The position numbers were made by a program, and so were the translations under genes. A stretch of 64,000 nt of DNA from Gordius sp. MW1 (Eukaryota > Nematomorpha > Gordioida > Gordea > Gordiidae). The stretch covers positions 11,408,168 to 11,472,167 of the forward strand of contig OZ038531.1 of NCBI GenBank assembly GCA_964036665.1. Direction: 5' to 3'. The notes under the pieces are model-generated. The model did not search any database and was not told the origin of the DNA. It saw only the letters and a list, made by a program, of their open reading frames with translations. Below, in pieces: positions 1,151 to 61,336 of this stretch. Position 1 is the first letter of the stretch; every line of letters starts with the position of its first letter.

Positions 1151-1157
1151 AACCGTA

Positions 1158-1289: not shown

Positions 1290-1381
1290 GCGATACAACA
1301 AACTAATCGCAACAATAAAACGTTGTCTTTTGTCAAAATGATAGTTCTCTCAGCTTAAAACCTCTTTTCGGAAGTCAATCG

Positions 1382-24486: not shown

Positions 24487-26554
24487 AGGATAATAGGATT
24501 CTCAAATTGGCTTACTTTTATATATTTTTTCATGCTCGTTCACATAGAATCGAAAAAAATAAATATTTTTACCTCAAAAATTTTCACATATTTTTCTTAC
24601 CGTATGCATCCGATGAAAGGTGTCGTTTTCAGACATGGTTTCTATGATAAAAAGTAAAAATTTATCAGAATCTGAAAACTATTACTTTAAAATCATGATC
24701 GCATAGAGCAGTTTTCAAAAATTAAGCACTCACGTTGCGATACAACAAACTAATCGCAACAATAAAACGTTGTCTTTTGTCAAAATGATAGTTCTCGCAG
24801 CTTAAAACCTCTTTTCGGAAGTCAATCGAGGATAATAGGATTCTCAAATTGGCTTACTTTTATATATTTTCTCATGCTCTTTCACGTAGAATTGAAAAAA
24901 ATAAATTTTTTTGCCTCAAAATTTTTCACATATTTTTCTTTGAACCGTATTCATCCGATGAAAGTTGTCGTTTTCAGACGTGGTTTCTATGATCCCAAGT
25001 AAAAATTTATCAGAATCTAAAAACTATTACTTTGAAATCATGATCGCATAGAGCAGTTTTCAAAAATTAAGCACTCACGTTGCGATACAACAAACTAATC
25101 GCAACAATAAAACGTTGTCTTTTGTCAAAATGATAGTTCTCGCAGCTTAAAACCTCTTTTTGGATGTCAATCGAGGATAATAGGATTCTCAAATTGGCTT
25201 ACTTTTATATATTTTTTTACGCTCTTTCACATAGAATCGAAAAAAATAAATATTTTTACCTCAAAATTTTTCACATATTTTTCTTTGAACCGTATTTATC
25301 CGATGAAAGGTGTCGTTTTCAGACATGGTTTCGATGATAAAAAGTAAAAATTTATCAGAATCAGAAAACTATTACTTTGAAATTATGATCGCATAGAGCA
25401 GTTTTCAAAAATTAAGCACTCACGTTGCGATACAACAAACTAATCGCAACAATAAAACGTTGTCTTTTGTCAAAATGATAGTTCTCGCAGCTTAAAACCT
25501 CTTTTCAGAAGTCAATCGAGGATAATAGGATTCTCAAATTGGCTTACTTTTATATATTTTTTCATGCTCTTTCACAGAGAATCGAAAAAAATAAATATTT
25601 TTACCTCAAAATTTTTCACATATTTTTCTTTCTACCGTATGCATCCGATGAAAGGTGTCGTTTTCAGACATGGTTTCTATGATAAAAAGTAAAAATTTAT
25701 CAGAATCTGAAAACTTTTACTTTGAAATCATGATCGCATAGAGCAGTTTTCAAAAATTAAGCACTCACGTAGCGATACAAAAAACTAATCGCAACATAAA
25801 ACGTTGTCTTTTGTCAAAATGAATAGTTCTGGCAGCTTAAAACCTCTTTGCGGAAGTCAATCGAGGATAATAGGATTCTCAAACTGGCTTACTTTTATAT
25901 ATTTTTTTACGCTCTTTCACATAGAATCGAAAAAAATAAATATTTTTACCTCAAAATTTTTCACATATTTTTCTTTGAACCCATATTCATCCGATGAAAG
26001 TTGTCGTTTTCAGACGTGGTTTCTAAGATCCCAAGTAAAAATTTATCAGAATCTGAAAACTATTACTTTGAAATCATGATCGCATAGAGTCATTTTCAAA
26101 AATTAAGCACTCACGTTGAGGTACAACATACTAATCGCAACAATAAAACGTTGTCTTTTGTCAAAATGATAGTTCTCGCAGCTTAAAACCTCTTTTCAGA
26201 AGTCAATCGAGGATAATAGGATTCTCAAATTGGCTTACTTTTATATATTTTTTCATGCTCTTTCACAGAGAATCGAAAAAAATAAATATTTTTACCTCAA
26301 AATTTTTCACATATTTTTCTTTGAACCGTATTCATCCGATGAAAGTTGTCGTTTTCAGACGTGGTTTCTATGATCCCAAGTGAAAATTTATCAGAATCTG
26401 AAAACTATTACTTTGAAATCATGATCGCATAATACATTTTAGAAAAATTAAGCACTCACGTTGCGATACAACAAACTAATCGCAACAATAAAACGTTGTC
26501 TTTTGTCAAAATGATAGTTCTCGCAGCTTAAAACCTCTTTTCAGAAGTCAATCG
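24487..26554. repeat. Mixed zone: six monomers, several one-off
   Basis: This is the least regular stretch. The monomer at 24487 has CATGCTCGTTC and lacks a few bases before CCGTATGC. That at 24829 has TTTTCTCATGC, CACGTAGAATTG and TTTTTTTGCCTC. That at 25174 has GTATTTATCC with GACATGGTTTCGATG. That at 25864 has GAACCCATATT, CTAAGATCCC and GTTGAGGTAC. That at 26210 has GCATAATACATTTTAG. None of these full combinations recurs elsewhere in the window. It separates left-type from middle-type organisation. Confidence 0.8.
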
Positions 26555-29500
26555 AGGATAATAGGATTCTCAAATTGGCTTACTTTTATATATTTTTTCA
26601 TGCTCTTTCACATAGAATCGAAAAAAATAAATATTTTTACCTCAAAATTTTTCACATATTTTTCTTTCTACCGTATGCATCCGATGAAAGGTGTCGTTTT
26701 CAGACATGGTTTCTATGATAAATAGTAAAAATTTATCAGAATCTGAAAACTATTACTTTGAAATCATGATCGCATAGAGCCATTTTCAAAAATTAAGCAC
26801 TCACGTTGCGGTACAACAAACTAATCGCAACAATAAAACGTTGTCTTTTGTCAAAATGATAGTTCTGGCAGCTTAAAACCTCTTTTCGGAAGTCAATCGA
26901 GGATAATAGGATTCTCAAATTGGCTTACTTTTATATATTTTTTTACGCTCTTTCACATAGAATCGAAAAAAATAAATATTTTTACCTCAAAATTTTTCAC
27001 ATATTTTTCTTTGAACCGTATTCATCCGATGAAAGTTGTCGTTTTCAGACGTGGTTTCTATGATCCCAAGTAAAAATTTATCAGAATCTAAAAACTATTA
27101 CTTTGAAATCATAATCGCATAGAGCAGTTTTCAAAAATTAAGCACTCACGTGGCGATACAACAAACTAATCGCAACAATAAAACGTTGTCTTTTGTCAAA
27201 ATGATAGTTCTCTCAGCTTAAAACCTCTTTTCGGAAGTCAATCGAGGATAATAGGATTCTCAAATTGGCTTACTTTTATATATTTTTTTACGCTCTTTCA
27301 CATAGAATCGAAAAAAATAAATATTTTTACCTCAAAATTTTTCACATATTTTTCTTTGAACCGTATTCTTCCGATGAAAGTTGTCGTTTTCAGACGTGGT
27401 TTCTATGATCCCAAGTAAAAATTTATCAGAATCTAAAAACTATTACTTTGAAATTATAATCGCATAGAGCAGTTTTCAAAAATTAAGCACTCACGTGGCG
27501 ATACAACAAACTAATCGCAACAATAAAACGTTGTCTTTTGTCAAAATGATAGTTCTCTCAGCTTAAAACCTCTTTTCAGAAGTCAATCGAGGATAATAGG
27601 ATTCTCAAATTGGCTTACTTTTATATATTTTTTCATGCTCTTTCACATAGAATCGAAAAAAATAAATATTTTTACCTCAAAATTATTCATATATTTTTCT
27701 TTCAACCGTATGCATCCGATGAAAGTTGTCGTTTTCAGACGTGGTTTCGATGATAGAAAGTAAAAATTTATCAGAATCAGAAAACTATTACTTTAAAATC
27801 ATGATCGCATAGTAAATTTTTGAAAAATTAAGCACTCACGTTGCGATACAACAAACTAATCGCAACAATAAAACGTTGTCTTTTGTCAAATGATAGTTCT
27901 CGCAGCTTAGAATCTCTTTTCGGAAGTAAATCGAGGATAATAGGATTCTCAAATTGGCTTACTTTTATATATTTTTTCATGCTCTTTCACAGAGAATCGA
28001 AAAAAATAAATATTTTTACCTCAAAATTTTTCACATATTTTTCTTTGAACCGTATTCATCCGATGAAAGTTGTCGTTTTCAGACGTGGTTTCTATGATCC
28101 CAAGTAAAAATTTATCAGAATCTGAAAACTATTACTTTGAAATCATGATCGCATAGAGCCATTTTCAAAAATTAAGCACTCACGTTGCGATACAACAAAC
28201 TAATCGCAACAATAAAACGTTGTCTTTTGTCAAATGATAGTTCTCGCAGCTTAGAATCTCTTTTCGGAAGTAAATCGAGGATAATAGGATTCTCAAATTG
28301 GCTTACTTTTATATATTTTTTTACGCTCTTTCACATAGAATCGAAAAAAATAAATATTTTTGCCTCAAAATTTTTCACATATTTTTCTTTTAACCGTATT
28401 CATCCGATGAAAGCTGTCGTTTTCAGACGTGGTTTCTATGATCCCAAGTAAAAATTTATCAGAATTTTAAAACTATTACTTTGAAATCATAATCGCATAG
28501 AGCGTTTTCAAAAATTAAGCACTCACGTTGCGATACAACAAACTAATCGCAACAATAAAACGTTGTCTTTTGTCAAAATGATAGTTCTCGCAGCTTAAAA
28601 CCTCTTTTCGGAAGTCAATCGAGGATAATAGGATTCTCAAATTGGCTTACTTTTATATATTTTTTCATGCTCTTTCACATAGAATCGAAAAAAATAAATA
28701 TTTTTACCTCAAAATTTTCACATATTTTTTTTTCTACCGTATGCATCCGATGAAAGTTGTCGTTTTCAGACGTGGTTTCTATGATCCCAAGTGAAAATTT
28801 ATCAGAATCTGAAAACTATTACTTTGAAATCATGATCGCATAGAGCCATTTTCAAAAATTAAGCACTCACGTTGCGGTACAACAAACTAATCGCAACAAT
28901 AAAACGTTGTCTTTTGTCAAAATGATAGTTCTTGCAGCTTAAAACCTCTTTTCGGAAGTCAATCGAGGATAATAGGATTCTCAAATTGGCTTACTTTTAT
29001 ATATTTTTTTACGCTCTTTCACATAGAATCGAAAAAAATAAATATTTTTACCTCAAAATTTTTCACATATTTTTCTTTGAACCGTATTCATCCGATAAAA
29101 GTTGTCGTTTTCAGACGTGGTTTCTATGATCCCAAGTAAAAATTTATCAGAATCTGAAAACTATTACTTTGAAATCATGATCGCATAGAGCAGTTTCCAA
29201 AAATTAAGCACTCACGTTGCGATACAACAAACTAATCGCAACAATAAAACGTTGTCTTTTGTCAAAATGATAGTTCTCGCAGCTTAAAACCTCTTTTCGG
29301 AAGTCAATCGAGGATAATAGGATTCTCAAATTGGCTTACTTTTATATATTTTTTCATGCGGTTTCACATAGAATCGAAAAAAATAAAAATTTTTACCCCA
29401 AAATTTTTCATATATTTTTCTTACAACCGTATGCATCCGATGTAAGTTGTCGTTTTCAGACGTGGTTTCGATGATAAAAAGTAAAAATTTATCAGAATCA

Positions 29501-30343
29501 GAAAACTATTACTTTAAAATCATGATCGCATAGTGAATTTTTGAAAAATTAAGCACTCACGTTGCGATACAACAAACTAATCGCAACAATAAAAGTTGTC
29601 TTTTGTCAAAATGATAGTTCTCGCAGCTTAAAACCTCTTTGCGGAAGTCAATCGAGGATAATAGGATTCTCAAATTGGCTTAATTTTATATATTTTTTTA
29701 CCTCTTTCACATAGAATCGAAAAAAATAAATTTTTTTACCTCAAAATTTTTCACATATTTTTCTTTGAACCGTATTCATCTGATGAAAGTTGTCGTTTTC
29801 AGACGTGGTTTCTATGATCCCAAGTGAAAATTTATTAGAATCTGAAAACTATTACTTTGAAATCATGATCGCATAGAGCCATTTTCAAAAATTAACCACT
29901 CACGTTGCGGTACAACAAACTAATCGCAACAATAAAACGTTGTCTATTGTCAAAATGATAGTTCTCGCATCTTAAAACCTCTTTTCGGAAGTCAATCGAG
30001 GATAATAGGATTCTCAAATTGGCTTACTTTTATATATTTTTTCATGCTCTTTCACATAGAATCGAAAAAAATAAATATTTTTACCTCAAAATTTTTCACA
30101 TATTTTTCTTTCTACCGTATGCATCCGATGAAAGGTGTCGTTTTCAGACATGGTTTCTATGATAAAAAGTAAAAATTTATCAGAATATGAAAACTTTTAC
30201 TTTGAAATCATGATCGCATAGAGCCATTTTCAAAAATTAAGCACTAACGTTGCGATACAACAAACTAATCGCAACAATAAAACGTTGTCTATTGTCAAAA
30301 TGATAGTTCTCGCATCTTAAAACCTCTTTTCGGAAGTCAATCG
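26555..30343. repeat. Higher-order repeat, 11 monomers (b/c d e f g h i j k l m)
   Basis: A last run in the ancestral order, but with middle-region sub-variants: GATGATAGAAAG in f, GTCAAATGATAG (one A lost) with CTTAGAATC after f and g, TTTTAACCG in h, CCGATAAAAG in j and GGCTTAATTTT in l. From about 28460 it matches about 31905 onwards at an offset of 3443 bp. It is a plausible precursor of the 10-mer unit to its right. Confidence 0.82.
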
Positions 30344-30688
30344 AGGATAATAGGATTCTCAAATTGGCTTACTTTTATATATTTTTTTACGCTCTTTCAC
30401 ATAGAATCGAAAAAAATAAATATTTTTACCTCAAAATTTTTCACATATTTTTCTTTGAACCGTATTCATCCGATGAAAGTTGTCGTTTTCAGACGTGGTT
30501 TCTATGATCCCAAGTAAAAATTTATCAGAATCTAAAAACTATTACTTTGAAATCATAATCGCATAGAGCAGTTTTCAAAAATTAAGCACTCACGTGGCGA
30601 TACAACAAACTAATCGCAACAATAAAACGTTGTCTATTGTCAAAATGATAGTTCTCGCATCTTAAAACCTCCTTTCGGAAGTCAATCG
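30344..30688. repeat. Reference monomer, class d'
   Basis: A d-class body (AATCTAAAAAC, CATAATCGC, CACGTGGCG) joined to the 3' end typical of l/m monomers (CTATTGTC, CTCGCATC), followed by CCTCCTTTCGG. It opens the 10-monomer unit of the middle region. Copies start at 33787, 36889, 40331 and 43775, with partial hybrids at 45154 and 48590. Confidence 0.88.
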
Positions 30689-31033
30689 AGGATAATAGGA
30701 TTCTCAAATTGGCTTACTTTTATATATTTTTTCATGCTCTTTCACAGAGAATCGAAAAAAATAAATATTTTTACCTCAAAATTTTTCACATATTTTTCTT
30801 TGAACCGTATTCATCCGATGAAAGTTGTCGTTTTCAGACGTGGTTTCTATGATCCCAAGTAAAAATTTATCAGAATCTGAAAACTATTACTTTGAAATCA
30901 TGATCGCATAGAGCCATTTTCAAAAATTAAGCATCACGTTGCGATACAACAAACTAATCGCAACAATAAAACGTTGTCTTTTGTCAAAATGAATAGTTCT
31001 GGCAGCTTAAAACCTCTTTTCGGAAGTCAATCG
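30689..31033. repeat. Reference monomer, class g'
   Basis: Carries CACAGAG with AAATAAATATTTTT, and GAGCCATTTTC followed by AAGCATCACG (one C lost), then the inserted A in GAATAGTTCTGGCAG. Many copies have GGATTTTCAAATTGG. Copies start at 34132, 37234, 40676, 45844 and 48934. Confidence 0.88.
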
Positions 31034-31379
31034 AGGATAATAGGATTCTCAAATTGGCTTACTTTTATATATTTTTTCATGCTCTTTCACATAGAATCGA
31101 AAAATATAAATATTTTTACCTCAAAATTTTTCACATATTTTTCTTTGAACCCATATTCATCCGATGAAAGTTGTCGTTTTCAGACGTGGTTTCTATGATC
31201 CCAAGTAAAAATTTATCAGAATCTGAAAACTATTACTTTGAAATCATGATCGCATAGAGCCATTTTTAAAAATTAAGCACTCACGTTGCGGTACAACAAA
31301 CTAATCGCAACAATAAAACGTTGTCTTTTGTCAAAATGATAGTTCTGGCAGCTTAAAACCTCTTTTCGGAAGTCAATCG
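31034..31379. repeat. Reference monomer, class p
   Basis: Diagnostic sites are ATCGAAAAATATAAAT, GAACCCATATTCATCC (an inserted base that ends the ORF frame differently), GAGCCATTTTTAAA, GTTGCGGTAC and CTGGCAGC. Copies start at 34477, 37579, 41021, 46189, 49279 and 50660. The GAACCCATATT change already appears at 25980, in the monomer starting at 25864, which may be the ancestor of the class. Confidence 0.9.
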
Positions 31380-31724
31380 AGGATAATAGGATTCTCAAAT
31401 TGGCTTACTTTTATATATTTTTTTACGCTCTTTCACATAGAATCAAAAAAAATAAAAATTTTTACCTCAAAATTTTTCACATATTTTTCTTTGAACCGTA
31501 TTCATCCGATGAAAGGTGTCGTTTTAAGACATGGTTTCTATGATCCCAAGTAAAAATTTATATGAATCTGAAAACTATTACTTTGAAATCATGATCGCAT
31601 AATGCATTTTTGAAAAATTAAGCACTCACGTTGCGATACAACAAACCAATCGCAACAATAAAACGTTGTCTTTTGTCAAAATGATAGTTCTCGCAGCTTA
31701 AAACCTCTTTGCGGAAGTCAATCG
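31380..31724. repeat. Reference monomer, class q
   Basis: Diagnostic sites are CATAGAATCAAAAAA, GAAAGGTGTCGTTTTAAGACATGG, CTATGATCCC, TATATGAATCTG, GCATAATGCATTTTTG and often CAAACCAATCG. The 3' half resembles class a, so q is probably an a-derived monomer. It is absent left of 31 kb and becomes the commonest class right of 51 kb (for example 51006, 52041, 52731, 53765, 56172, 56862, 57552, 58586, 60992). Confidence 0.9.
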
Positions 31725-33786
31725 AGGATAATAGGATTCTCAAATTGGCTTACTTTTATATATTTTTTCATGCTCTTTCACATAGAATCGAAAAAAATAA
31801 ATATTTTTACCTCAAAATTATTCACATATTTTTCTTTCAACCGTATGCATCCGATGAAAGTTGTCGTTTTCAGACGTGGTTTCGATGATAGAAAGTAAAA
31901 ATTTATCAGAATTTTAAAATTACTTTGAAATCATAATCGCATAGAGCATTTTCAAAAATTAAGCACTCACGTTGCGATACAACAAACTAATCGCAACAAT
32001 AAAACGTTGTCTTTTGTCAAAATGATAGTTCTCGCAGCTTAAAACCTCTTTTCGGAAGTCAATCGAGGATAATAGGATTCTCAAATTGGCTTACTTTTAT
32101 ATATTTTTTCATGCTCTTTCACATAGAATCGAAAAAAATAAATATTTTTACCTCAAAATTTTCACATATTTTTCTTTCTACCGTATGCATCCGATGAAAG
32201 TTGTCGTTTTCAGACGTGGTTTCTATGATCCCAAGTGAAAATTTATCAGAATCTGAAAACTAGTACTTTGAAATCATGATCGCATAGAGCCATTTTCAAA
32301 AATTAAGCACTCACGTTGCGGTACAACATACTAATCGCAACAATAAAACGTTGTCTTTTGTCAAAATGATAGTTCTCGCAGCTTAAAACCTCTTTTCGGA
32401 AGTCAATCGAGGATAATAGGATTCTCAAATTGGCCTACTTTTATATATTTTTTTACGCTCTTTCACATAGAATCGAAAAAAATAAATATTTTTACCTCAA
32501 AATTTTTCACATATTTTTCTTTGAACCGTATTCATCCGATAAAAGTTGTCGTTTTCAGACGTGGTTTCTATGATCCCAAGTAAAAATTTATCAGAATCTG
32601 AAAACTATTACTTTGAAATCATGATCGCATAGAGCAGTTTCCAAAAATTAAGCACTCACGTTGCGATACAACAAACTAATCGCAACAATAAAACGTTGTC
32701 TTTTGTCAAAATGATAGTTCTCGCAGCTTAAAACCTCTTTTCGGAAGTCAATCGAGGATAATAGGATTCTCAAATTGGCTTACTTTTATATATTTTTTCA
32801 TGCGGTTTCACATAGAATCGAAAAAAATAAATATTTTTACCCCAAAATTTTTCATATATTTTTCTTACAACCGTATGCATCCGATGTAAGTTGTCGTTTT
32901 CAGACGTGGTTTCGATGATAAAAAGTAAAAATTTATCAGAATCAGAAAACTATTACTTTAAAATCATGATCGCATAGTGAATTTTTGAAAAATTAAGCAC
33001 TCACGTTGCGATACAACAAACTAATCGCAACAATAAAAGTTGTCTTTTGTCAAAATGATAGTTCTCGCAGCTTAAAACCTCTTTGCGGAAGTCAATCGAG
33101 GATAATAGGATTCTCAAATTGGCTTAATTTTATATATTTTTTTACCTCTTTTACATAGAATCGAAAAAATAAATTTTTTTACCTCAAAATTTTTCACATA
33201 TTTTTCTTTGAACCGTATTCATCTGATGAAAGTTGTCGTTTTCAGACGTGGTTTCTATGATCCCAAGTGAAAATTTATTAGAATCTGAAAACTCTTACTT
33301 TGAAATCATGATCGCATAGAGCCATTTTAAAAAATTAACCACTCACGTTGCGGTACAACAAACTAATCGCAACAATAAAACGTTGTCTATTGTCAAAATG
33401 ATAGTTCTCGCATCTTAAAACCTCTTTTCGGAAGTCAATCGAGGATAATAGGATTCTCAAATTGGCTTACTTTTATATATTTTTTCATGCTCTTTCACAT
33501 AGAATCGAAAAAAATAAATATTTTTACCTCAAAATTTTTCACATATTTTTCTTTCTACCGTATGCATCCGATGAAAGGTGTCGTTTTCAGACATGGTTTC
33601 TATGATAAAAAGTAAAAATTTATCAGAATATGAAAACTTTTACTTTGAAATCATGATCGCATAGAGCCATTTTCAAAAATTAAGCACTAACGTTGCGATA
33701 CAACAAACTAATCGCAACAATAAAACGTTGTCTATTGTCAAAATGATAGTTCTCGCATCTTAAAACCTTTTTTCGGAAGTCAATCG

Positions 33787-36700
33787 AGGATAATAGGATT
33801 CTCAAATTGGCTTACTTTTATATATTTTTTTACGCTCTTTCACATAGAATCGAAAAAAATAAATATTTTTACCTCAAAATTTTTCACATATTTTTCTTTG
33901 AACCGTATTCATCCGATGAAAGTTGTCGTTTTCAGACGTGGTTTCTATGATCCCAAGTAAAAATTTATCAGAATCTAAAAACTATTACTTTGAAATCATA
34001 ATCGCATAGAGCAGTTTTCAAAAATTAAGCACTCACGTGGCGATACAACAAACTAATCGCAACAATAAAACGTTGTCTATTGTCAAAATGATAGTTCTCG
34101 CATCTTAAAACCTCCTTTCGGAAGTCAATCGAGGATAATAGGATTTTCAAATTGGCTTACTTTTATATATTTTTTCATGCTCTTTCACAGAGAATCGAAA
34201 AAAATAAATATTTTTACCTCAAAATTTTTCACATATTTTTCTTTGAACCGTATTCATCCGATGAAAGTTGTCGTTTTCAGACGTGGTTTCTATGATCCCA
34301 AGTAAAAATTTATCAGAATCTGAAAACTATTACTTTGAAATCATGATCGCATAGAGCCATTTTCAAAAATTAAGCATCACGTTGCGATACAACAAACTAA
34401 TCGCAACAATAAAACGTTGTCTTTTGTCAAAATGAATAGTTCTGGCAGCTTAAAACCTCTTTTCGGAAGTCAATCGAGGATAATAGGATTCTCAAATTGG
34501 CTTACTTTTATATATTTTTTCATGCTTTTTCACATAGAATCGAAAAATATAAATATTTTTACCTCAAAATTTTTCACATATTTTTCTTTGAACCCATATT
34601 CATCCGATGAAAGTTGTCGTTTTCAGACGTGGTTTCTATGATCCCAAGTAAAAATTTATCAGAATCTGAAAACTATTACTTTGAAATCATGATCGCATAG
34701 AGCCATTTTTAAAAATTAAGCACTCACGTTGCGGTACAACAAACTAATCGCAACAATAAAACGTTGTCTTTTGTCAAAATGATAGTTCTGGCAGCTTAAA
34801 ACCTCTTTTCGGAAGTCAATCGAGGATAATAGGATTCTCAAATTAACTTACTTTTATATATTTTTTCATGCTCTTTCACAGAGAATCGAAAAAAATAAAA
34901 ATTTTTACCTCAAAATTTTTCACATATTTTTCTTTGAACCGTATTCATCCGATGAAAGTTGTCGTTTTCAGACGTGGTTTCTATGATCCCAAGTAAAAAT
35001 TTATCAGAATCTGAAAACTATTACTTTGAAATCATGATCGCATAGAGCCTTTTTCAAAAATTAAGCACTCACGTTGCGGTACTACAAACTAATCGCAACA
35101 ATAAAACGTTGTCTTTTGTCAAAATGATAGTTCTCGCAGCTTAAAACCTCTTTTCGGAAGTCAATCGAGGATAATAGGATTCTCAAATTGGCTTACTTTT
35201 ATATATTTTTTCATGCGGTTTCACATAGAATCGAAAAAAATAAATATTTTTACCCCAAAATTTTTCATATATTTTTCTTACAACCGTATGCATCCGATGT
35301 AAGTTGTCGTTTTCAGACGTGGTTTCGATGATAAAAAGTAAAAATTTATCAGAATCAGAAAACTATTACTTTAAAATCATGATCGCATAGTGAATTTTTG
35401 AAAAATTAATCACTCACGTTGCGATACAACAAACTAATCGCAACAATAAAAGTTGTCTTTTGTCAAAATGATAGTTCTCGCAGCTTAAAACCTCTTTGCG
35501 GAAGTCAATCGAGGATAATAGGATTCTCAAATTGGCTTACTTTTATATATTTTTTTACCTCTTTCACATAGAATCGAAAAAAATAAATTTTTTTACCTCA
35601 AAATTTTTCACATATTTTTCTTTGAACCGTATTCATCTGATGAAAGTTGTCGTTTTCAGATGTGGTTTCTATGATCCCAAGTGAAAATTTATCAGAATCT
35701 GAAAACTATTACTTTGAAATCATGATCGCATAGAGCCATTTTCAAAAATTAACCACTCACGTTGCGGTACAACAAACTAATCGCAACAATAAAACGTTGT
35801 CTATTGTCAAAATGATAGTTCTCGCATCTTAAAACCTCTTTTCGGAAGTCAATCGAGGATAATAGGATTCTCAAATTGGCTTACTTTTATATATTTTTTC
35901 ATGCTCGTTCACATAGAATCGAAAAAAATAAATATTTTTACCTCAAAAATTTTCACATATTTTTCTTTCTACCGTATGCATCCGATGTAAGTTGTCGTTT
36001 TCAGACGTGGTTTCGATGATAAAAAGTAAAAATTTATCAGAATCAGAAAACTATTACTTTAAAATCATGATCGCATAGTGAATTTTTGAAAAATTAAGCA
36101 CTCACGTTGCGATACAACAAACTAATCGCAACAATAAAAGTTGTCTTTTGTCAAAATGATAGTTCTCGCAGCTTAAAACCTCTTTGCGGAAGTCAATCGA
36201 GGATAATAGGATTCTCAAATTGGCTTAATTTTATATATTTTTTTACCTCTTTCACATAGAATCGAAAAAAATAAATTTTTTTACCTCAAAATTTTTCACA
36301 TATTTTTCTTTGAACCGTATTCATCTGATGAAAGTTGTCGTTTTCAGACGTGGTTTCTATGATCCCAAGTGAAAATTTATTAGAATCTGAAAACTATTAC
36401 TTTGAAATCATGATCGCATAGAGCCATTTTCAAAAATTAACCACTCACGTTGCGGTACAACAAACTAATCGCAACAATAAAACGTTGTCTATTGTCAAAA
36501 TGATAGTTCTCGCATCTTAAAACCTCTTTTCGGAAGTCAATCGAGGATAATAGGATTCTCAAATTGGCTTACTTTTATATATTTTTTCATGCTCTTTCAC
36601 ATAGAATCGAAAAAAATAAATATTTTTACCTCAAAATTTTTCACATATTTTTCTTTCTACCGTATGCATCCGATGAAAGGTGTCGTTTTCAGACATGGTT

Positions 36701-36888
36701 TCTATGATAAAAAGTAAAAATTTATCAGAATATGAAAACTTTTACTTTGAAATCATGATCGCATAGAGCCATTTTCAAAAATTAAGCACTAACGTTGCGA
36801 TACAACAAACTAATCGCAACAATAAAACGTTGTCTATTGTCAAAATGATAGTTCTCGCATCTTAAAACCTCTTTTCGGAAGTCAATCG
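33787..36888. repeat. Higher-order repeat, rearranged 9-mer (d' g' p g k l m/k l m)
   Basis: Nine monomers, 3102 bp. After p, the q f/h i j segment is replaced by g k l. The monomer at 34823 has AAATTAACTTAC at its start, then a left-type g body with GAGCCTTTTTC and GTACTAC. The stretch about 34865-35960 resembles 23460-24600, including AATTAATCACTC and TTTTCAGATGTGG. The monomer at 35857 is an m/k hybrid with its joint at 35971-35987. Confidence 0.82.
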
Positions 36889-39800
36889 AGGATAATAGGA
36901 TTCTCAAATTGGCTTACTTTTATATATTTTTTTACGCTCTTTCACATAGAATCGAAAAAAATAAATATTTTTACCTCAAAATTTTTCACATATTTTTCTT
37001 TGAACCGTATTCATCCGATGAAAGTTGTCGTTTTCAGACGTGGTTTCTATGATCCCAAGTAAAAATTTATCAGAATCTAAAAACTATTACTTTGAAATCA
37101 TAATCGCATAGAGCAGTTTTCAAAAATTAAGCACTCACGTGGCGATACAACAAACTAATCGCAACAATAAAACGTTGTCTATTGTCAAAATGATAGTTCT
37201 CGCATCTTAAAACCTCCTTTCGGAAGTCAATCGAGGATAATAGGATTCTCAAATTGGCTTACTTTTATATATTTTTTCATGCTCTTTCACAGAGAATCGA
37301 AAAAAATAAATATTTTTACCTCAAAATTTTTCACATATTTTTCTTTGAACCGTATTCATCCGATGAAAGTTGTCGTTTTCAGACGTGGTTTCTATGATCC
37401 CAAGTAAAAATTTATCAGAATCTGAAAACTATTACTTTGAAATCATGATCGCATAGAGCCATTTTCAAAAATTAAGCATCACGTTGCGATACAACAAACT
37501 AATCGCAACAATAAAACGTTGTCTTTTGTCAAAATGAATAGTTCTGGCAGCTTAAAACCTCTTTTCGGAAGTCAATCGAGGATAATAGGATTCTCAAATT
37601 GGCTTACTTTTATATATTTTTTCATGCTCTTTCACATAGAATCGAAAAATATAAATATTTTTACCTCAAAATTTTTCACATATTTTTCTTTGAACCCATA
37701 TTCATCCGATGAAAGTTGTCGTTTTCAGACGTGGTTTCTATGATCCCAAGTAAAAATTTATCAGAATCTGAAAACTATTACTTTGAAATCATGATCGCAT
37801 AGAGCCATTTTTAAAAATTAAGCACTCACGTTGCGGTACAACAAACTAATCGCAACAATAAAACGTTGTCTTTTGTCAAAATGATAGTTCTGGCAGCTTA
37901 AAACCTCTTTTCGGAAGTCAATCGAGGATAATAGGATTCTCAAATTGGCTTACTTTTATATATTTTTTTACGCTCTTTCACATAGAATCAAAAAAAATAA
38001 AAATTTTTACCTCAAAATTTTTCACATATTTTTCTTTGAACCGTATTCATCCGATGAAAGGTGTCGTTTTAAGACATGGTTTCTATGATCCCAAGTAAAA
38101 ATTTATATGAATCTGAAAACTATTACTTTGAAATCATGATCGCATAATGCATTTTTGAAAAATTAAGCACTCACGTTGCGATACAACAAACCAATCGCAA
38201 CAATAAAACGTTGTCTTTTGTCAAAATGATAGTTCTCGCAGCTTAAAACCTCTTTGCGGAAGTCAATCGAGGATAATAGGATTCTCAAATTGGCTTACTT
38301 TTATATATTTTTTCATGCTCTTTCACATAGAATCGAAAAAAATAAATATTTTTACCTCAAAATTATTCACATATTTTTCTTTCAACCGTATGCATCCGAT
38401 GAAAGTTGTCGTTTTCAGACGTGGTTTCGATGATAGAAAGTAAAAATTTATCAGAATTTTAAAATTACTTTGAAATCATAATCGCATAGAGCATTTTCAA
38501 AAATTAAGCACTCACGTTGCGATACAACAAACTAATCGCAACAATAAAACGTTGTCTTTTGTCAAAATGATAGTTCTCGCAGCTTAAAACCTCTTTTCGG
38601 AAGTCAATCGAGGATAATAGGATTCTCAAATTGGCTTACTTTTATATATTTTTTCATGCTCTTTCACATAGAATCGAAAAAAATAAATATTTTTACCTCA
38701 AAATTTTCACAATTTTTCTTTCTACCGTATGCATCCGATGAAAGTTGTCGTTTTCAGACGTGGTTTCTATGATCCCAAGTGAAAATTTATCAGAATCTGA
38801 AAACTAGTACTTTGAAATCATGATCGCATAGAGCCATTTTCAAAAATTAAGCACTCACGTTGCGGTACAACATACTAATCGCAACAATAAAACGTTGTCT
38901 TTTGTCAAAATGATAGTTCTCGCAGCTTAAAACCTCTTTTCGGAAGTCAATCGAGGATAATAGGATTCTCAAATTGGCTTACTTTTATATATTTTTTTAC
39001 GCTCTTTCACATAGAATCGAAAAAAATAAATATTTTTACCTCAAAATTTTTCACATATTTTTCTTTGAACCGTATTCATCCGATAAAAGTTGTCGTTTTC
39101 AGACGTGGTTTCTATGATCCCAAGTAAAAATTTATCAGAATCTGAAAACTATTACTTTGAAATCATGATCGCATAGAGCAGTTTCCAAAAATTAAGCACT
39201 CACGTTGCGATACAACAAACTAATCGCAACAATAAAACGTTGTCTTTTGTCAAAATGATAGTTCTCGCAGCTTAAAACCTCTTTTCGGAAGTCAATCGAG
39301 GATAATAGGATTCTCAAATTGGCTTACTTTTATATATTTTTTCATGCGGTTTCACATAGAATCGAAAAAAATAAATATTTTTACCCCAAAATTTTTCATA
39401 TATTTTTCTTACAACCGTATGCATCCGATGTAAGTTGTCGTTTTCAGACGTGGTTTCGATGATAAAAAGTAAAAATTTATCAGAATCAGAAAACTATTAC
39501 TTTAAAATCATGATCGCATAGTGAATTTTTGAAAAATTAAGCACTCACGTTGCGATACAACAAACTAATCGCAACAATAAAAGTTGTCTTTTGTCAAAAT
39601 GATAGTTCTCGCAGCTTAAAACCTCTTTGCGGAAGTCAATCGAGGATAATAGGATTCTCAAATTGGCTTAATTTTATATATTTTTTTACCTCTTTTACAT
39701 AGAATCGAAAAAATAAATTTTTTTACCTCAAAATTTTTCACATATTTTTCTTTGAACCGTATTCATCTGATGAAAGTTGTCGTTTTCAGACGTGGTTTCT

Positions 39801-40330
39801 ATGATCCCAAGTGAAAATTTATTAGAATCTGAAAACTCTTACTTTGAAATCATGATCGCATAGAGCCATTTTAAAAAATTAACCACTCACGTTGCGGTAC
39901 AACAAACTAATCGCAACAATAAAACGTTGTCTATTGTCAAAATGATAGTTCTCGCATCTTAAAACCTCTTTTCGGAAGTCAATCGAGGATAATAGGATTC
40001 TCAAATTGGCTTACTTTTATATATTTTTTCATGCTCTTTCACATAGAATCGAAAAAAATAAATATTTTTACCTCAAAATTTTTCACATATTTTTCTTTCT
40101 ACCGTATGCATCCGATGAAAGGTGTCGTTTTCAGACATGGTTTCTATGATAAAAAGTAAAAATTTATCAGAATATGAAAACTTTTACTTTGAAATCATGA
40201 TCGCATAGAGCCATTTTCAAAAATTAAGCACTAACGTTGCGATACAACAAACTAATCGCAACAATAAAACGTTGTCTATTGTCAAAATGATAGTTCTCGC
40301 ATCTTAAAACCTTTTTTCGGAAGTCAATCG
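36889..40330. repeat. Higher-order repeat, 10-mer (d' g' p q f/h i j k l m), copy 2
   Basis: Ten monomers, 3442 bp, in exactly the same class order as the unit at 30344 and with nearly all its private variants, including the 341-bp f/h hybrid (38270). It differs by a one-base loss at about 38710 in class i and GGCTTACTTT instead of GGCCTACTTT in class j. Confidence 0.86.
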
Positions 40331-52040: not shown

Positions 52041-52730
52041 AGGATAATAGGATTCTCAAATTGGCTTACTTTTATATATTTTTTTACGCTCTTTCACATA
52101 GAATCAAAAAAAATAAATATTTTTACCTCAAAATTTTTCACATATTTTTCTTTGAACCGTATTCATCCGATGAAAGGTGTCGTTTTAAGACATGGTTTCT
52201 ATGATCCCAAGTAAAAATTTATATGAATCTGAAAACTATTACTTTGAAATCATGATCGCATAATGCATTTTTGAAAAATTAAGCACTCACGTTGCGATAC
52301 AACAAACCAATCGCAACAATAAAACGTTGTCTTTTGTCAAAATGATAGTTCTCGCAGCTTAAAACCTCTTTGCGGAAGTCAATCGAGGATAATAGGATTC
52401 TCAAATTGGCTTACTTTTATATATTTTTTTACGCTCTTTCACATAGAATCGAAAAAAATAAATATTTTTACCTCAAAATTTTTCACATATTTTTCTTTGA
52501 ACCGTATTCATCCGATGAAAGTTGTCGTTTTCAGACGTGGTGTCTATGATCCCAAGTAAAAATTTATCAGAATCTGAAAACTATTACTTTGAAATCATGA
52601 TCGCATAGAGCAGTTTCCAAAAATTAAGCACTCACGTTGCGATACAACAAACTAATCGCAACAATAAAACGTTGTCTTTTGTCAAAATGATAGTTCTCGC
52701 ATCTTAAAACCTCTTTTCGGAAGTCAATCG
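52041..52730. repeat. q-j dimer, first of two tandem copies
   Basis: The 690-bp pair q j is followed at 52731-53420 by an almost identical pair. Both j copies share the rare GGTGTCTATG. The only difference noticed is CAAACTAATCG versus CAAACCAATCG near the end of the second pair. Confidence 0.85.
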
Positions 52731-55700
52731 AGGATAATAGGATTCTCAAATTGGCTTACTTTTATATATTTTTTTACGCTCTTTCACATAGAATCAAAAA
52801 AAATAAATATTTTTACCTCAAAATTTTTCACATATTTTTCTTTGAACCGTATTCATCCGATGAAAGGTGTCGTTTTAAGACATGGTTTCTATGATCCCAA
52901 GTAAAAATTTATATGAATCTGAAAACTATTACTTTGAAATCATGATCGCATAATGCATTTTTGAAAAATTAAGCACTCACGTTGCGATACAACAAACCAA
53001 TCGCAACAATAAAACGTTGTCTTTTGTCAAAATGATAGTTCTCGCAGCTTAAAACCTCTTTGCGGAAGTCAATCGAGGATAATAGGATTCTCAAATTGGC
53101 TTACTTTTATATATTTTTTTACGCTCTTTCACATAGAATCGAAAAAAATAAATATTTTTACCTCAAAATTTTTCACATATTTTTCTTTGAACCGTATTCA
53201 TCCGATGAAAGTTGTCGTTTTCAGACGTGGTGTCTATGATCCCAAGTAAAAATTTATCAGAATCTGAAAACTATTACTTTGAAATCATGATCGCATAGAG
53301 CAGTTTCCAAAAATTAAGCACTCACGTTGCGATACAACAAACCAATCGCAACAATAAAACGTTGTCTTTTGTCAAAATGATAGTTCTCGCAGCTTAAAAC
53401 CTCTTTGCGGAAGTCAATCGAGGATAATAGGATTCTCAAATTGGCTTACTTTTATATATTTTTTCATGCTCTTTCACATAGAATCGAAAAAAATAAATAT
53501 TTTTACCTCAAAATTATTCACATATTTTTCTTTCAACCGTATGCATCCGATAAAGTTGTCGTTTTCAGACGTGGTTTCGATGATAAAAAGTAAAAATTTA
53601 TCAGAATCAGAAAACTATTACTTTAAAATCATGATCGCATAGTAAATTTTTGAAAAATTAAGCACTCACGTTGCGGTACAACAAACTAATCGCAACAATA
53701 AAACGTTGTCTTTTGTCAAAATGATAGTTCTGGCAGCTTAAAACCTCTTTTCGGAAGTCAATCGAGGATAATAGGATTCTCAATTGGCTTACTTTTATAT
53801 ATTTTTTTACGCTCTTTCACATAGAATCAAAAAATATAAATATTTTTACCTCAAAATTTTTCACATATTTTTCTTTGAACCGTATTCATCCGATGAAAGG
53901 TGTCGTTTTAAGACATGGTTTCTATGATCCCAAGTAAAAATTTATATGAATCTGAAAACTATTACTTTGAAATCATGATCGCATAATGCATTTTTGAAAA
54001 ATTAAGCACTCACGTTGCGATACAACAAACCAATCGCAACAATAAAACGTTGTCTTTTGTCAAAATGATAGTTCTCGCAGCTTAAAACCTCTTTGCGGAA
54101 GTCAATCGAGGATAATAGGATTCTCAAATTGGCTTACTTTTATATATTTTTTTACGCTCTTTCACATAGAATCGAAAAAAATAAATATTTTAACCTCAAA
54201 ATTTTTCACATATTTTTCTTTGGACCGTATTCATCCGATGAAAGTTGTCGTTTTCAGACGTGGTTTCTATGATCCCAAGTAAAAATTTATCAGAATCTGA
54301 AAACCATTACTTTGAAATTATGATCGCATAGAGCAGTTTCCAAAAATTAAGCACTCACGTTGCGATACAACAAACTAATCGCAACAATAAAACGTTGTCT
54401 TTTGTCAAAATGATAGTTCTCGCAGCTTAAAACCTCTTTTCGGAAGTCAATCGAGGATAATAGGATTCTCAAATTGGCTTACTTTTATATATTTTTTCAT
54501 GCGGTTTCACATAGAATCGAAAAAAATAAATATTTTTACCCCAAAATGTTTCATATATTTTTCTTACAACCGTATGCATCCGATGTAAGTTGTCGTTTTC
54601 AGACGTGGTTTCGAAAAGTAAAAATTTATCAGAATCAGAAAACTATTACTTTAAAATCATGATCGCATAGTGAATTTTTGAAAAATTAAGCACTCACGTT
54701 GCGATACAACAAACTAATCGCAACCATAAAAGTTGTCTTTTGTCAAAATGATAGTTCTCGCAGCTTAAAACCTCTTTGCGGAAGTCAATCGAGGATAATA
54801 GGATTCTCAAATTGGCTTACTTTTATATATTTTTTTACCTCTTTCACATAGAATCGAAAAAAATAAAGTTTTTTACCTCAAAATTTTTCACATATTTTTC
54901 TTTGAACCGTATTCATCTGATGAAAGTTGTCGTTTTCAGACGTGGTTTCTATGATCCCAAGTGAAAATTTATCAGAATCTGAAAACTATTACTTTGAAAT
55001 CATGATCGCATAGAGCCATTTTCAAAAATTAACCACTCACGTTGCGGTACAACAAACTAATCGCAACAATAAAACGTTGTCTATTGTCAAAATGATAGTT
55101 CTCGCATCTTAAAACCTCTTTTCGGAAGTCAATCGAGGATAATAGGATTCTCAAATTGGCTTACTTTTATATATTTTTTCATGCTCTTTCACATAGAATC
55201 GAAAAAAATAAATATTTTTACCTCAAAATTTTTCACATATTTTTCTTTCTACCGTATGCATCCGATGAAAGGTGTCGTTTTCAGACATGGTTTCTATGAT
55301 AAAAAGTAAAAATTTATCAGAATCTGAAAACTTTTACTTTAAAATCATGATCGCATAGAGCAGTTTTCAAAAATTAAGCACTCACGTAGCGATACAAAAA
55401 ACTAATCGCAACATAAAACGTTGTCTTTTGTCAAAATGAATAGTTCTGGCAGCTTAAAACCTCTTTGCGGAAGTCAATCGAGGATAATAGGATTCTCAAA
55501 CTGGCTTACTTTTATATATTTTTTTACGCTCTTTCACATAGAATCGAAAAAAATAAATATTTTTACCTCAAAATTTTTCACATATTTTTCTTTCTACCGT
55601 ATGCATCCGATGAAAGGTGTCGTTTTCAGACATGGTTTCTATGATAAATAGTAAAAATTTATCAGAATCTGAAAACTATTACTTTGAAATCATGATCGCA

Positions 55701-57551
55701 TAGAGCAGTTTTCAAAAATTAAGCACTCACGTAGCGATACAAAAAACTAATCGCATCAATAAAACGTTGTCTTTTGTCAAAATGAATAGTTCTGGCAGCT
55801 TAAAACCTCTTTGCGGAAGTCAATCGAGGATAATAGGATTCTCAAACTGGCTCACTTTTATATATTTTTTTACGCTCTTACACATAGAATCGAAAAAAAT
55901 AAATATTTTTACCTCAAAATTTTTCACATATTTTTCTTTGAACCGTATTCATCCGATGAAAGTTGTCGTTTTCAGACGTGGTTTCTATGATCCCAAGTAA
56001 AAATTTATCAGAATCTGAAAACTATTACTTTGAAATCATGATCGCATAGAGCCATTTTCAAAAATTAAGCACTCACGTTGCGGTACAACAAACTAATCGC
56101 AACAATAAAACGTTGTCTTTTGTCAAAATGATAGTTCTGGCAGCTTAAAACCTCTTTTCGGAAGTCAATCGAGGATAATAGGATTCTCAAATTGGCTTAC
56201 TTTTATATATTTTTTTACGCTCTTTCACATAGAATCAAAAAAAATAAATATTTTTACCTCAAAATTTTTCACATATTTTTCTTTGAACCGTATTCATCCG
56301 ATGAAAGGTGTCGTTTTAAGACATGGTTTCTATGATCCCAAGTAAAAATTTATATGAATCTGAAAACTATTACTTTGAAATCATGATCGCATAATGCATT
56401 TTTGAAAAATTAAGCACTCACGTTGCGATACAACAAACCAATCGCAACAATAAAACGTTGTCTTTTGTCAAAATGATAGTTCTCGCAGCTTAAAACCTCT
56501 TTGCGGAAGTCAATCGAGGATAATAGGATTCTCAAATTGGCTTACTTTTATATATTTTTTCATGCTCTTTCACATAGAATCGAAAAAAATAAATATTTTT
56601 ACCTCAAAATTATTCACATATTTTTCATTCAACCGTATGCATCCGATGAAAGTTGTCGTTTTCAGACGTGGTTTCGATGATAAAAAGTAAAAATTTATCA
56701 GAATCAGAAAACTATTACTTTAAAATCATGATCGCATAGTAAATTTTTGAAAAATTAAGCACTCACGTTGCGGTACAACAAACTAATCGCAACAATAAAA
56801 CGTTGTCTTTTGTCAAAATGATAGTTCTGGCAGCTTAAAACCTCTTTTCGGAAGTCAATCGAGGATAATAGGATTCTCAAATTGGCTTACTTTTATATAT
56901 TTTTTTACGCTCTTTCACATAGAATCAAAAAATATAAATATTTTTACCTCAAAATTTTTCACATATTTTTCTTTGAACCGTATTCATCCGATGAAAGGTG
57001 TCGTTTTAAGACATGGTTTCTATGATCCCAAGTAAAAATTTATATGAATCTGAAAACTATTACTTTGAAATCATGATCGCATAATGCATTTTTGAAAAAT
57101 TAAGCACTCACGTTGCGATACAACAAACTAATCGCAACAATAAAACGTTGTCTTTTGTCAAAATGATAGTTCTCGCAGCTTAAAATCTCTTTTCCGAAGT
57201 CAATCGAGGATAATAGGATTCTCAAATTGGCTTACTTTTATATATTTTTTCATGCTCTTTCACAGAGAATCGAAAAAAATAAATATTTTTACCTCAAAAT
57301 TTTTCACATATTTTTCTTTGAACCGTATTCATCCGATGAAAGTTGTCGTTTTCAGACATGGTTTCTATGATAAAAAGTAAAAATTTATCAGAATCTGAAA
57401 ACTTTTACTTTGAAATCATGATCGCATAGAGCCATTTTCAAAAATTAAGCCCTAACGTTGCGATACAACAAACTAATCGCAACAATAAAACGTTGTCTAT
57501 TGTCAAAATGATAGTTCTCGCATCTTAAAACCTCTTTTCGGAAGTCAATCG
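52731..57551. repeat. Higher-order repeat, 14-mer (q j f q j k l m a/b c q f q g/m), copy 1
   Basis: Fourteen monomers, 4821 bp. Private variants include CCGATAAAGTTG (53550), CTCAATTGGC (about 53780), TTTGGACCG and AACCATTAC (54109 monomer), GTTTCGAAAAGTAA (deletion in k, about 54612), CAACCATAAAAG, AAAGTTTTTTACC, and AAACTGGCTCAC with CTCTTACAC (55827 monomer). The monomer at 55481 starts like class a and ends like class b. Confidence 0.88.
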
Positions 57552-60500
57552 AGGATAATAGGATTCTCAAATTGGCTTACTTTTATATATTTTTTTACGC
57601 TCTTTCACATAGAATCAAAAAAAATAAATATTTTTACCTCAAAATTTTTCACATATTTTTCTTTGAACCGTATTCATCCGATGAAAGGTGTCGTTTTAAG
57701 ACATGGTTTCTATGATCCCAAGTAAAAATTTATATGAATCTGAAAACTATTACTTTGAAATCATGATCGCATAATGCATTTTTGAAAAATTAAGCACTCA
57801 CGTTGCGATACAACAAACCAATCGCAACAATAAAACGTTGTCTTTTGTCAAAATGATAGTTCTCGCAGCTTAAAACCTCTTTGCGGAAGTCAATCGAGGA
57901 TAATAGGATTCTCAAATTGGCTTACTTTTATATATTTTTTTACGCTCTTTCACATAGAATCGAAAAAAATAAATATTTTTACCTCAAAATTTTTCACATA
58001 TTTTTCTTTGAACCGTATTCATCCGATGAAAGTTGTCGTTTTCAGACGTGGTGTCTATGATCCCAAGTAAAAATTTATCAGAATCTGAAAACTATTACTT
58101 TGAAATCATGATCGCATAGAGCAGTTTCCAAAAATTAAGCACTCACGTTGCGATACAACAAACCAATCGCAACAATAAAACGTTGTCTTTTGTCAAAATG
58201 ATAGTTCTCGCAGCTTAAAACCTCTTTGCGGAAGTCAATCGAGGATAATAGGATTCTCAAATTGGCTTACTTTTATATATTTTTTCATGCTCTTTCACAT
58301 AGAATCGAAAAAAATAAATATTTTTACCTCAAAATTATTCACATATTTTTCTTTCAACCGTATGCATCCGATAAAGTTGTCGTTTTCAGACGTGGTTTCG
58401 ATGATAAAAAGTAAAAATTTATCAGAATCAGAAAACTATTACTTTAAAATCATGATCGCATAGTAAATTTTTGAAAAATTAAGCACTCACGTTGCGGTAC
58501 AACAAACTAATCGCAACAATAAAACGTTGTCTTTTGTCAAAATGATAGTTCTGGCAGCTTAAAACCTCTTTTCGGAAGTCAATCGAGGATAATAGGATTC
58601 TCAATTGGCTTACTTTTATATATTTTTTTACGCTCTTTCACATAGAATCAAAAAATATAAATATTTTTACCTCAAAATTTTTCACATATTTTTCTTTGAA
58701 CCGTATTCATCCGATGAAAGGTGTCGTTTTAAGACATGGTTTCTATGATCCCAAGTAAAAATTTATATGAATCTGAAAACTATTACTTTGAAATCATGAT
58801 CGCATAATGCATTTTTGAAAAATTAAGCACTCACGTTGCGATACAACAAACCAATCGCAACAATAAAACGTTGTCTTTTGTCAAAATGATAGTTCTCGCA
58901 GCTTAAAACCTCTTTGCGGAAGTCAATCGAGGATAATAGGATTCTCAAATTGGCTTACTTTTATATATTTTTTTACGCTCTTTCACATAGAATCGAAAAA
59001 AATAAATATTTTAACCTCAAAATTTTTCACATATTTTTCTTTGGACCGTATTCATCCGATGAAAGTTGTCGTTTTCAGACGTGGTTTCTATGATCCCAAG
59101 TAAAAATTTATCAGAATCTGAAAACCATTACTTTGAAATTATGATCGCATAGAGCAGTTTCCAAAAATTAAGCACTCACGTTGCGATACAACAAACTAAT
59201 CGCAACAATAAAACGTTGTCTTTTGTCAAAATGATAGTTCTCGCAGCTTAAAACCTCTTTTCGGAAGTCAATCGAGGATAATAGGATTCTCAAATTGGCT
59301 TACTTTTATATATTTTTTCATGCGGTTTCACATAGAATCGAAAAAAATAAATATTTTTACCCCAAAATGTTTCATATATTTTTCTTACAACCGTATGCAT
59401 CCGATGTAAGTTGTCGTTTTCAGACGTGGTTTCGAAAAGTAAAAATTTATCAGAATCAGAAAACTATTACTTTAAAATCATGATCGCATAGTGAATTTTT
59501 GAAAAATTAAGCACTCACGTTGCGATACAACAAACTAATCGCAACCATAAAAGTTGTCTTTTGTCAAAATGATAGTTCTCGCAGCTTAAAACCTCTTTGC
59601 GGAAGTCAATCGAGGATAATAGGATTCTCAAATTGGCTTACTTTTATATATTTTTTTACCTTTTCACATAGAATCGAAAAAAATAAAGTTTTTTACCTCA
59701 AAATTTTTCACATATTTTTCTTTGAACCGTATTCATCTGATGAAAGTTGTCGTTTTCAGACGTGGTTTCTATGATCCCAAGTGAAAATTTATCAGAATCT
59801 GAAAACTATTACTTTGAAATCATGATCGCATAGAGCCATTTTCAAAATTTAACCACTCACGTTGCGGTACAACAAACTAATCGCAACAATAAAACGTTGT
59901 CTATTGTCAAAATGATAGTTCTCGCATCTTAAAACCTCTTTTCGGAAGTCAATCGAGGATAATAGGATTCTCAAATTGGCTTACTTTTATATATTTTTTC
60001 ATGCTCTTTCACATAGAATCGAAAAAAATAAATATTTTTACCTCAAAATTTTTCACATATTTTTCTTTCTACCGTATGCATCCGATGAAAGGTGTCGTTT
60101 TCAGACATGGTTTCTATGATAAAAAGTAAAAATTTATCAGAATCTGAAAACTTTTACTTTAAAATCATGATCGCATAGAGCAGTTTTCAAAAATTAAGCA
60201 CTCACGTAGCGATACAAAAAACTAATCGCAACATAAAACGTTGTCTTTTGTCAAAATGAATAGTTCTGGCAGCTTAAAACCTCTTTGCGGAAGTCAATCG
60301 AGGATAATAGGATTCTCAAACTGGCTTACTTTTATATATTTTTTTACGCTCTTTCACATAGAATCGAAAAAAATAAATATTTTTACCTCAAAATTTTTCA
60401 CATATTTTTCTTTCTACCGTATGCATCCGATGAAAGGTGTCGTTTTCAGACATGGTTTCTATGATAAATAGTAAAAATTTATCAGAATCTGAAAACTATT

Positions 60501-61336
60501 ACTTTGAAATCATGATCGCATAGAGCAGTTTTCAAAAATTAAGCACTCACGTAGCGATACAAAAAACTAATCGCATCAATAAAACGTTGTCTTTTGTCAA
60601 AATGAATAGTTCTGGCAGCTTAAAACCTCTTTGCGGAAGTCAATCGAGGATAATAGGATTCTCAAACTGGCTCACTTTTATATATTTTTTTACGCTCTTA
60701 CACATAGAATCGAAAAAAATAAATATTTTTACCTCAAAATTTTTCACATATTTTTCTTTGAACCGTATTCATCCGATGAAAGTTGTCGTTTTCAGACGTG
60801 GTTTCTATGATCCCAAGTAAAAATTTATCAGAATCTGAAAACTATTACTTTGAAATCATGATCGCATAGAGCCATTTTCAAAAATTAAGCACTCACGTTG
60901 CGGTACAACAAACTAATCGCAACAATAAAACGTTGTCTTTTGTCAAAATGATAGTTCTGGCAGCTTAAAACCTCTTTTCGGAAGTCAATCGAGGATAATA
61001 GGATTCTCAAATTGGCTTACTTTTATATATTTTTTTACGCTCTTTCACATAGAATCAAAAAAAATAAATATTTTTACCTCAAAATTTTTCACATATTTTT
61101 CTTTGAACCGTATTCATCCGATGAAAGGTGTCGTTTTAAGACATGGTTTCTATGATCCCAAGTAAAAATTTATATGAATCTGAAAACTATTACTTTGAAA
61201 TCATGATCGCATAATGCATTTTTGAAAAATTAAGCACTCACGTTGCGATACAACAAACCAATCGCAACAATAAAACGTTGTCTTTTGTCAAAATGATAGT
61301 TCTCGCAGCTTAAAACCTCTTTGCGGAAGTCAATCG
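57552..61336. repeat. Higher-order repeat, 14-mer copy 2, truncated to 11 monomers
   Basis: Repeats the first 11 monomers of the unit at 52731 with every private variant listed there. Differences noticed are one lost C (TTTTTTTACCTTTTCAC at about 59655) and TTCAAAATTTAACC for TTCAAAAATTAACC at about 59842. The match ends just into the next monomer (61337), which has CACAGAG where copy 1 has CACATAG. Confidence 0.88.

Follow-up and report, generated by a model that had tools for sequence, protein, structure and literature searches.

A 345-bp satellite array in Gordius sp. as a probable patchwork of short, irregular higher-order repeats

The current study deals with a 64,000-nucleotide stretch (hereafter the window) of the nematomorph Gordius sp. 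MW1 (GenBank assembly GCA_964036665.1, contig OZ038531.1, forward strand), which is filled by a single tandem array of a 345-bp satellite monomer. Judging from its sequence, this array is probably a patchwork: its numerous higher-order repeats (HORs) are short and irregular, would have originated from one monomer family and been reshaped by in-register recombination, and occupy a probably pericentromeric position. An earlier, sequence-only reading of the window had recognized three successive HOR generations, i.e., a 13-mer on the left, a 10-mer in the middle, and a 14-mer on the right, with the newer units built from the older one. The array clearly exemplifies a known process, not three clean historical layers.

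Results

Array and monomer classes. The genome comprises 211.8 Mb in 12 contigs, and the window corresponds to positions 11408168 to 11472167 of the 24-Mb contig C5. Tandem Repeats Finder (TRF) reported the whole window in one row (1-64000) with 185.7 copies and 93% match; it was cut into 185 full monomers, and the base counts give an A+T content of 69.5%. Read from the window, 47.8 kb of flanks, and an adjoining 10-kb sample, the unbroken array extends from position 11388168 to about 11496100 of C5, i.e., over some 108 kb. It is interrupted at C5:11496100-11500142 by 4.0 kb of non-satellite DNA, and the single open frame searched therein (L033:5002-5652) matched no Pfam family at an E value of 0.001.

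A total of 648 monomers were aligned, 338 of them from the 122-kb stretch of window and flanks and the remaining 310 from 12 places sampled along C5. Two other places, at 12.6 and 12.8 Mb (L024 and L025), represent a different family, were excluded from this alignment, and were compared separately. Monomer classes were defined by average-linkage clustering at a cut-off of 2%, on which the class relations depend, and 116 of the 231 clusters are singletons. The median divergence between monomers is 5.7%. Under our own mapping of letters, the left classes P Y R C C D S T U V H W X correspond to a to m of the sequence-only reading, and C', b, c, and d to its d', g', p, and q. The array and its parts are as follows.

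1 to 64000, + strand: tandem array of the 345-bp satellite monomer (TRF; 185 monomers)
1 to 24486, + strand: Left block, irregular 13-class order P Y R C C D S T U V H W X (class string; collinear runs)
24487 to 27933, + strand: mixed zone of 10 monomers, 6 of them one-offs (class string), including two two-parent hybrids
28278 to 50314, + strand: Middle block, 10-class order C' b c d e U V H W a with variants (spacings of 3443, 3444, and 3102 bp)
29655 to 41366, + strand: recent duplication of 15 monomers, from 29655 and again from 36200 (lag of 6545 bp; 1 substitution and 1 indel in 5163 bp)
52731 to 61336, + strand: Right block, 14-class order d V h d V j W X Q R d h d i (25 monomers, i.e., 1.8 copies; lag of 4821 bp, 52731 to 57552)

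Block structure. The described change in organization is real: the left pattern reaches to about 24.5 kb, the 10-monomer pattern starts at about 28.3 kb behind the mixed zone, and the 14-monomer pattern ends at 61336. A lag scan for repeat spacings likewise confirmed those of 3443/3444 bp and 4821 bp. Higher-order structure is evident from 33 collinear runs (at least 4 monomers, <2% divergence), whereas 200 shuffles of the monomer order gave 0.09 such runs on average and never more than 2, and from a pooled run divergence of 0.1 to 0.5% versus the median of 5.7% between monomers. The units are irregular, however, and no regular unit is present in many consecutive copies. In the Left block, the canonical 13-mer occurs only once (1-4482); the others are a 17-mer, an 11-mer, and internally reshuffled units, and the starts are spaced 4482, 5868, and 3795 bp apart. 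Both canonical 10-mers of the Middle block (30344-33786 and 36889-40330) belong to the one near-identical duplication listed above, and the 14-mer of the Right block represents a single recent duplication, whose two copies of 11 monomers are separated by 1 substitution and 1 indel over 3783 bp. Short patterns are also present in the 5' flank (A-B and C-D-E-F) and in the 3' flank (k-l-H, m-P-n-k-C-o, and B-p-H-g-q-r), and with these patterns on both sides included the blocks number more than three.

Hybrid monomers. The mosaic test comprised the 16 monomers or classes of positions 1 to 62000 that fall outside 21 parent classes, with 500 column shuffles each. Half of them (8/16) are two-parent mosaics (P ≤ 0.004):

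5864 to 6208, + strand: C/R hybrid between C and C (P = 0.004; fits the flanking order on both sides)
18970 to 19314, + strand: S/C hybrid between D and D (P = 0.002; fits the flanking order on both sides)
26210, + strand: S/P hybrid in the mixed zone (P = 0.004)
26555, + strand: X/R hybrid in the mixed zone (P = 0.002)
29999 to 30343, + strand: class a monomer, X/i mosaic (P = 0.002), first ~195 bp X-type, 3' part common to class i
31725 to 32065, + strand: class e monomer (2 copies), D/T mosaic (0/500 shuffles), 5' part D-type, 3' part T-type
35856 to 36199, + strand: X/H hybrid between W and W (0/500 shuffles; fits the flanking order on both sides)
44465 to 44809, + strand: H/c hybrid between V and f (0/500 shuffles; fits the flanking order on both sides)

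On 12 of 13 testable flanking sides, the parents fit the class order observed at other places of the window, compared with about 1.4 (29/21) expected by chance, a value counted from neighbor tables under the assumption that any of the 21 classes is equally likely; sides whose neighbor is itself a one-off were skipped, and the best parent was tied in two cases, which makes agreement by chance slightly more likely. Because the parents of the hybrids fit the flanking order, in-register recombination is the likely generator of the new arrangements, and an in-register exchange is further favored by the observation that all 185 monomers stay within 336 to 349 bp despite the many changes in order.

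The two mosaic classes of the Middle block were traced to their parts. Up to column 198, 17 of 18 informative columns of class a are X-type, compared with 3 of 14 beyond it. Class X is close to class Q on either side of this boundary (2 and 3 mismatches), and class a rather than X is therefore likely the recombinant; five copies of a with an identity of at least 99% were found among the genome-wide matches listed, all in the Middle block. In class e, 10 of 13 informative columns of the 5' part are D-type and 13 of 16 of the 3' part are T-type, the other 3 representing a private 3-base gap. An in-step deletion within D-S-T would have left class e, and the order d-D-S, from which it would arise, is found at 60992-61682. 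The nearest known sources for the halves of a and e lie in the blocks of the window (X, 1 mismatch; T, 0 to 3; D, 3), with the exception of the 5' part of e, for which a nearer source (1 mismatch) is present at 84410 in the 3' flank.

An origin of class a from the 98% matches at 11.68-11.69 Mb was considered and dropped. The monomers there differ from a by 9 to 10 aligned columns (6 in the X-type part, 3 to 4 in the rest) and from a near-consensus class by 6 to 7 columns in two short stretches. The left X has only 1 difference from a in the first part, which is thus closer to the left X; a source elsewhere may apply to the second part of a. With respect to the origin of the newer units, it is likely from these mosaics that some middle classes (a and e) re-used left-type monomers.

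Class sharing among the blocks. As the sequence-only reading had noticed, the Left block (1-24.5 kb) lacks C', b, c, and d. With 4 consensus differences, C' represents a variant of C as found on the left, and class d has relatives of 98% identity in both flanks and of 97% (class P) inside the Left block. The reported persistence of the k-l-m trio (H-W-X) is loose: the "m" of the Middle block (class a) is 12 mismatches away from the left X, and the "k" of the Right block (class j) is 8 mismatches away from H. Left and Middle blocks have C, D, H, S, T, U, V, and W in common, Left and Right blocks D, Q, R, S, V, W, and X, and Middle and Right blocks D, S, V, W, b, c, and d. According to the class strings, X, Q, and R are missing from the Middle block. 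The Right block holds these three classes of the Left block together with b, c, and d of the Middle block, and a linear succession from left to middle to right is therefore not indicated; the relation of the blocks is a network and not a line.

The median nearest distance among the three blocks is 1.2 to 2.0%, and that to any of the 12 sampled places is 2.6% or more. Relatives of class Y are similarly local: among the matches listed (best 40 of 4,304 candidates scored), all 15 full-length relatives with an identity of at least 96% are in the window, and the next ones listed (95%) are located on C5, C2, C3, C4, and C6. Related monomers with identities of 93 to 97% are present among the matches listed for C2, C3, C4, and C6.

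Divergence of the blocks. A comparison of within- and between-block divergence had been suggested as a check on the three generations. Collinear runs of at least 3 monomers were compared; they overlap, and their selection at <2% per monomer keeps the between-block values low. The divergence is 0.465% within the Left block (28 runs), 0.388% within the Middle block (16 runs), and 0.104% within the Right block (2 runs), compared with 0.768% between Left and Middle (12 runs) and 0.645% between Middle and Right (3 runs). No collinear runs of this length were found between Left and Right. With P values that serve as guides, the Left-Middle divergence exceeds that within Left (P = 0.003) and within Middle (P = 0.011), but Left and Middle blocks are indistinguishable in their internal divergence (Mann-Whitney P = 0.95). 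A very recent duplication is present in each of the three blocks, with divergences of 0.048% (Left), 0.019%, and 0.026%. Since internal divergence is equal and every block has its recent duplication, age layers fail to separate Left from Middle. A layered evolution with younger sequences towards the core is thus not seen for these two blocks; the Right block is lower, but with 2 runs only. Where the block consensus sequences differ, the sites that are derived relative to the overall consensus are distributed 6:13 (Left:Middle), 9:11 (Left:Right), and 8:5 (Middle:Right). Their polarity was discarded as a marker of direction, as the sites are few and no clear direction emerges.

Discussion

Overall, the combination of short irregular units, a reticulate sharing of classes, and hybrid monomers whose parents fit their neighbors is best accounted for by the probable patchwork proposed above. 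In-register homologous recombination between neighboring monomers, be it unequal crossing-over, single-strand annealing, or a conversion-type exchange, would have duplicated or deleted whole numbers of monomers and left hybrid monomers at the joints. The three blocks would accordingly be relatives that draw largely on one local class set; parts of the Middle unit (a and e) would have re-used left-type monomers, and the Right unit would mix left-like with middle-like classes. The block structure, the divergences, and the hybrid monomers with their fit to the neighboring order are observed, whereas the specific recombination pathway, the direction of each event, and the pericentromeric place are inferred.

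Several results weigh against this explanation. The other eight items of the mosaic test gave P values from 0.014 to 1, and an origin of b, c, and d as hybrids of left classes is unsupported (P = 0.10 to 0.27). The single failing side among the flanks is the 3' side of class a, which is unlike the usual predecessor of its right-hand neighbor. Moreover, the 3' flank equals the Right block in its nearness to the Left block (both with a median nearest distance of 2.0%; 5' flank, 2.3%), and the local class set therefore extends past the window. Finally, C3 holds a 99% match to the 181 bases that make up the X-type first half of class a, and C5 holds many 98% matches at other positions, so a local origin of this half is not required.

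The last two observations would also be expected if each block had been amplified locally and independently from a shared, older library of monomers, as a frozen sample of classes without parent-child relations. This explanation, which we consider unlikely, is in accordance with the relatives of class d in both flanks and with the finding that 11 of the 12 sampled places have their own local set of monomers (median nearest distance of 0.1 to 1.5% within the place; the exception, at 11.60 Mb, has 2.9%). However, the blocks of the window are closer to one another than to the sampled places, and, save for the 5' part of e, the halves of a and e have their closest known sources in these very blocks.

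An equally improbable alternative is the linear history that the sequence-only reading had put forward, in which the 13-mer is the oldest unit and was succeeded by the 10-mer and then the 14-mer, each replacing the earlier one. It can draw on the excess of between-block over within-block divergence, the left-type parts of a and e, the leaning of consensus differences towards a derived Middle block (13 versus 6), and the least diverged runs of the Right block. Nevertheless, copies in the Left and Middle blocks are equally diverged, the Left block also holds a near-identical duplication, X, Q, and R reappear in the Right block after their absence from the Middle one, the polarity is weak, and further blocks adjoin on both flanks. 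The change of organization and a probable re-use of older monomers in some later units remain of this proposal, but a succession of three generations is not supported.

An assembly artefact with misordered or falsely duplicated blocks is very improbable. Near-identical duplications with lags of 6545 and 4821 bp are prone to misassembly, but the window contains no N, and the flank agreement of the hybrids is not expected from random misjoins.

With the probable patchwork by in-register recombination as the preferred explanation, the array is of interest beyond Gordius. HOR turnover is best known from primates, and here a contiguous invertebrate array is available in which breaks of the class order coincide with hybrid monomers. 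Such hybrids at order breaks are sequence evidence for in-register recombination that would generate new units. The results also call for caution, as class strings read by eye can mimic a clean succession when the history is reticulate.

Chromosomal context and comparison with other satellites

Samples of 10 kb were taken at 20 places of C5 from 9.0 to 13.5 Mb; 15 of them contain the satellite or a related one, and the other five (9.0-10.9 Mb) lack it. In the samples it lies on the + strand from 11.05 to 12.4 Mb, on the - strand at 13.0 and 13.2 Mb, and on both strands at 13.5 Mb, where the switch is located near position 3512 of the 10-kb sample (C5 13.50-13.51 Mb) and CTCGT-rich short tandem repeats are present at 6381-7475. 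A retroelement fragment was found within the array in the 11.85-Mb sample (L020:4043-6085), with matches to RNase H-like, integrase zinc-binding, and integrase core domains in two separate frames.

Between the + and the - half of the array lies a related satellite of ~350-352 bp (C5 12.59-12.91 Mb), which is ~22% diverged and itself switches strand. Its best identity to the window family is 78% over about half of the sequence (12.6 Mb, + strand; 12.8 Mb, - strand), and among the matches listed in a genome search with its monomer (best 39 of 775 candidates scored) all are on C5, on the + strand at 12.593-12.621 Mb and on the - strand at 12.721-12.906 Mb. Monomers at 12.40 Mb, i.e., between the outer array and this satellite, are ~15% diverged from the window family and have their own repeat at a lag of 3130 bp.

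This arrangement suggests that the 345-bp array probably forms a pericentromeric region of more than 2 Mb around the 350-352-bp satellite, which in turn is a possible centromere core. The median nearest copies of the latter differ by 0.3 to 0.6%; several flank places reach 0.1 to 0.6%, and the putative core is thus no lower. The CENP-B box has the motif TTCG....A..CGGG, and no occurrence was found on either strand of the window, even with one substitution allowed. As a tentative and rather doubtful extension, the 24-Mb contig may carry a megabase-sized nested centromere and a TTAGGG-type end, with opposed arms of the 345-bp satellite, the 15%-divergent stretch on one side, and a strand-switching 350-352-bp core, the hybrids being records of growth events. 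If this were true, the growth of a centromere would be readable event by event from hybrid monomers. One end of C5 is a CCCTAA array (TTAGGG-type telomere), and the other bears GTTAAA-like and GGTGGG-like short repeats.

Comparable architectures have been reported for other animals. For human chromosome 8, a layered and mirrored growth of alpha-satellite HORs was described (PMC8099727), and the Gordius array resembles human and ape alpha-satellite in that its tandem monomers are arranged into higher-order units, form local blocks, include recent duplications, and flank a distinct inner array. In contrast to the long, homogeneous arrays of alpha-satellite, the units in Gordius are irregular with one or two canonical copies; further differences are the 345-bp monomer, the lack of a CENP-B box in the window, and the unsupported age layering of Left and Middle blocks. 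In the orangutan, patchwork HOR blocks are reported to share only 80 to 90% identity (PMC12428378). Several distinct HOR blocks lie side by side in one array here, too, but the collinear runs common to blocks differ by 0.6 to 0.8%. Among invertebrates, satellites of the beetle Tribolium madens have a macro-dyad (inverted) organization, with dyads of up to 75 kb (PMC13081366). This system shares with Gordius an invertebrate satellite at probable (peri)centromeres, a strand change within the region, and two related, adjoining families, whereas the strand change in the Gordius assembly spans a megabase-sized region and the monomer lengths differ.

With respect to the remaining contigs, the COX1 gene on C12, which is taken as mitochondrial, has an uninterrupted frame with the invertebrate code but not with the vertebrate code. 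A nearly equal full-length match is located at C8:2829490-2830827, with partial ones on C1, C3, C4, and C5, a distribution that suggests nuclear copies of mitochondrial COX1.

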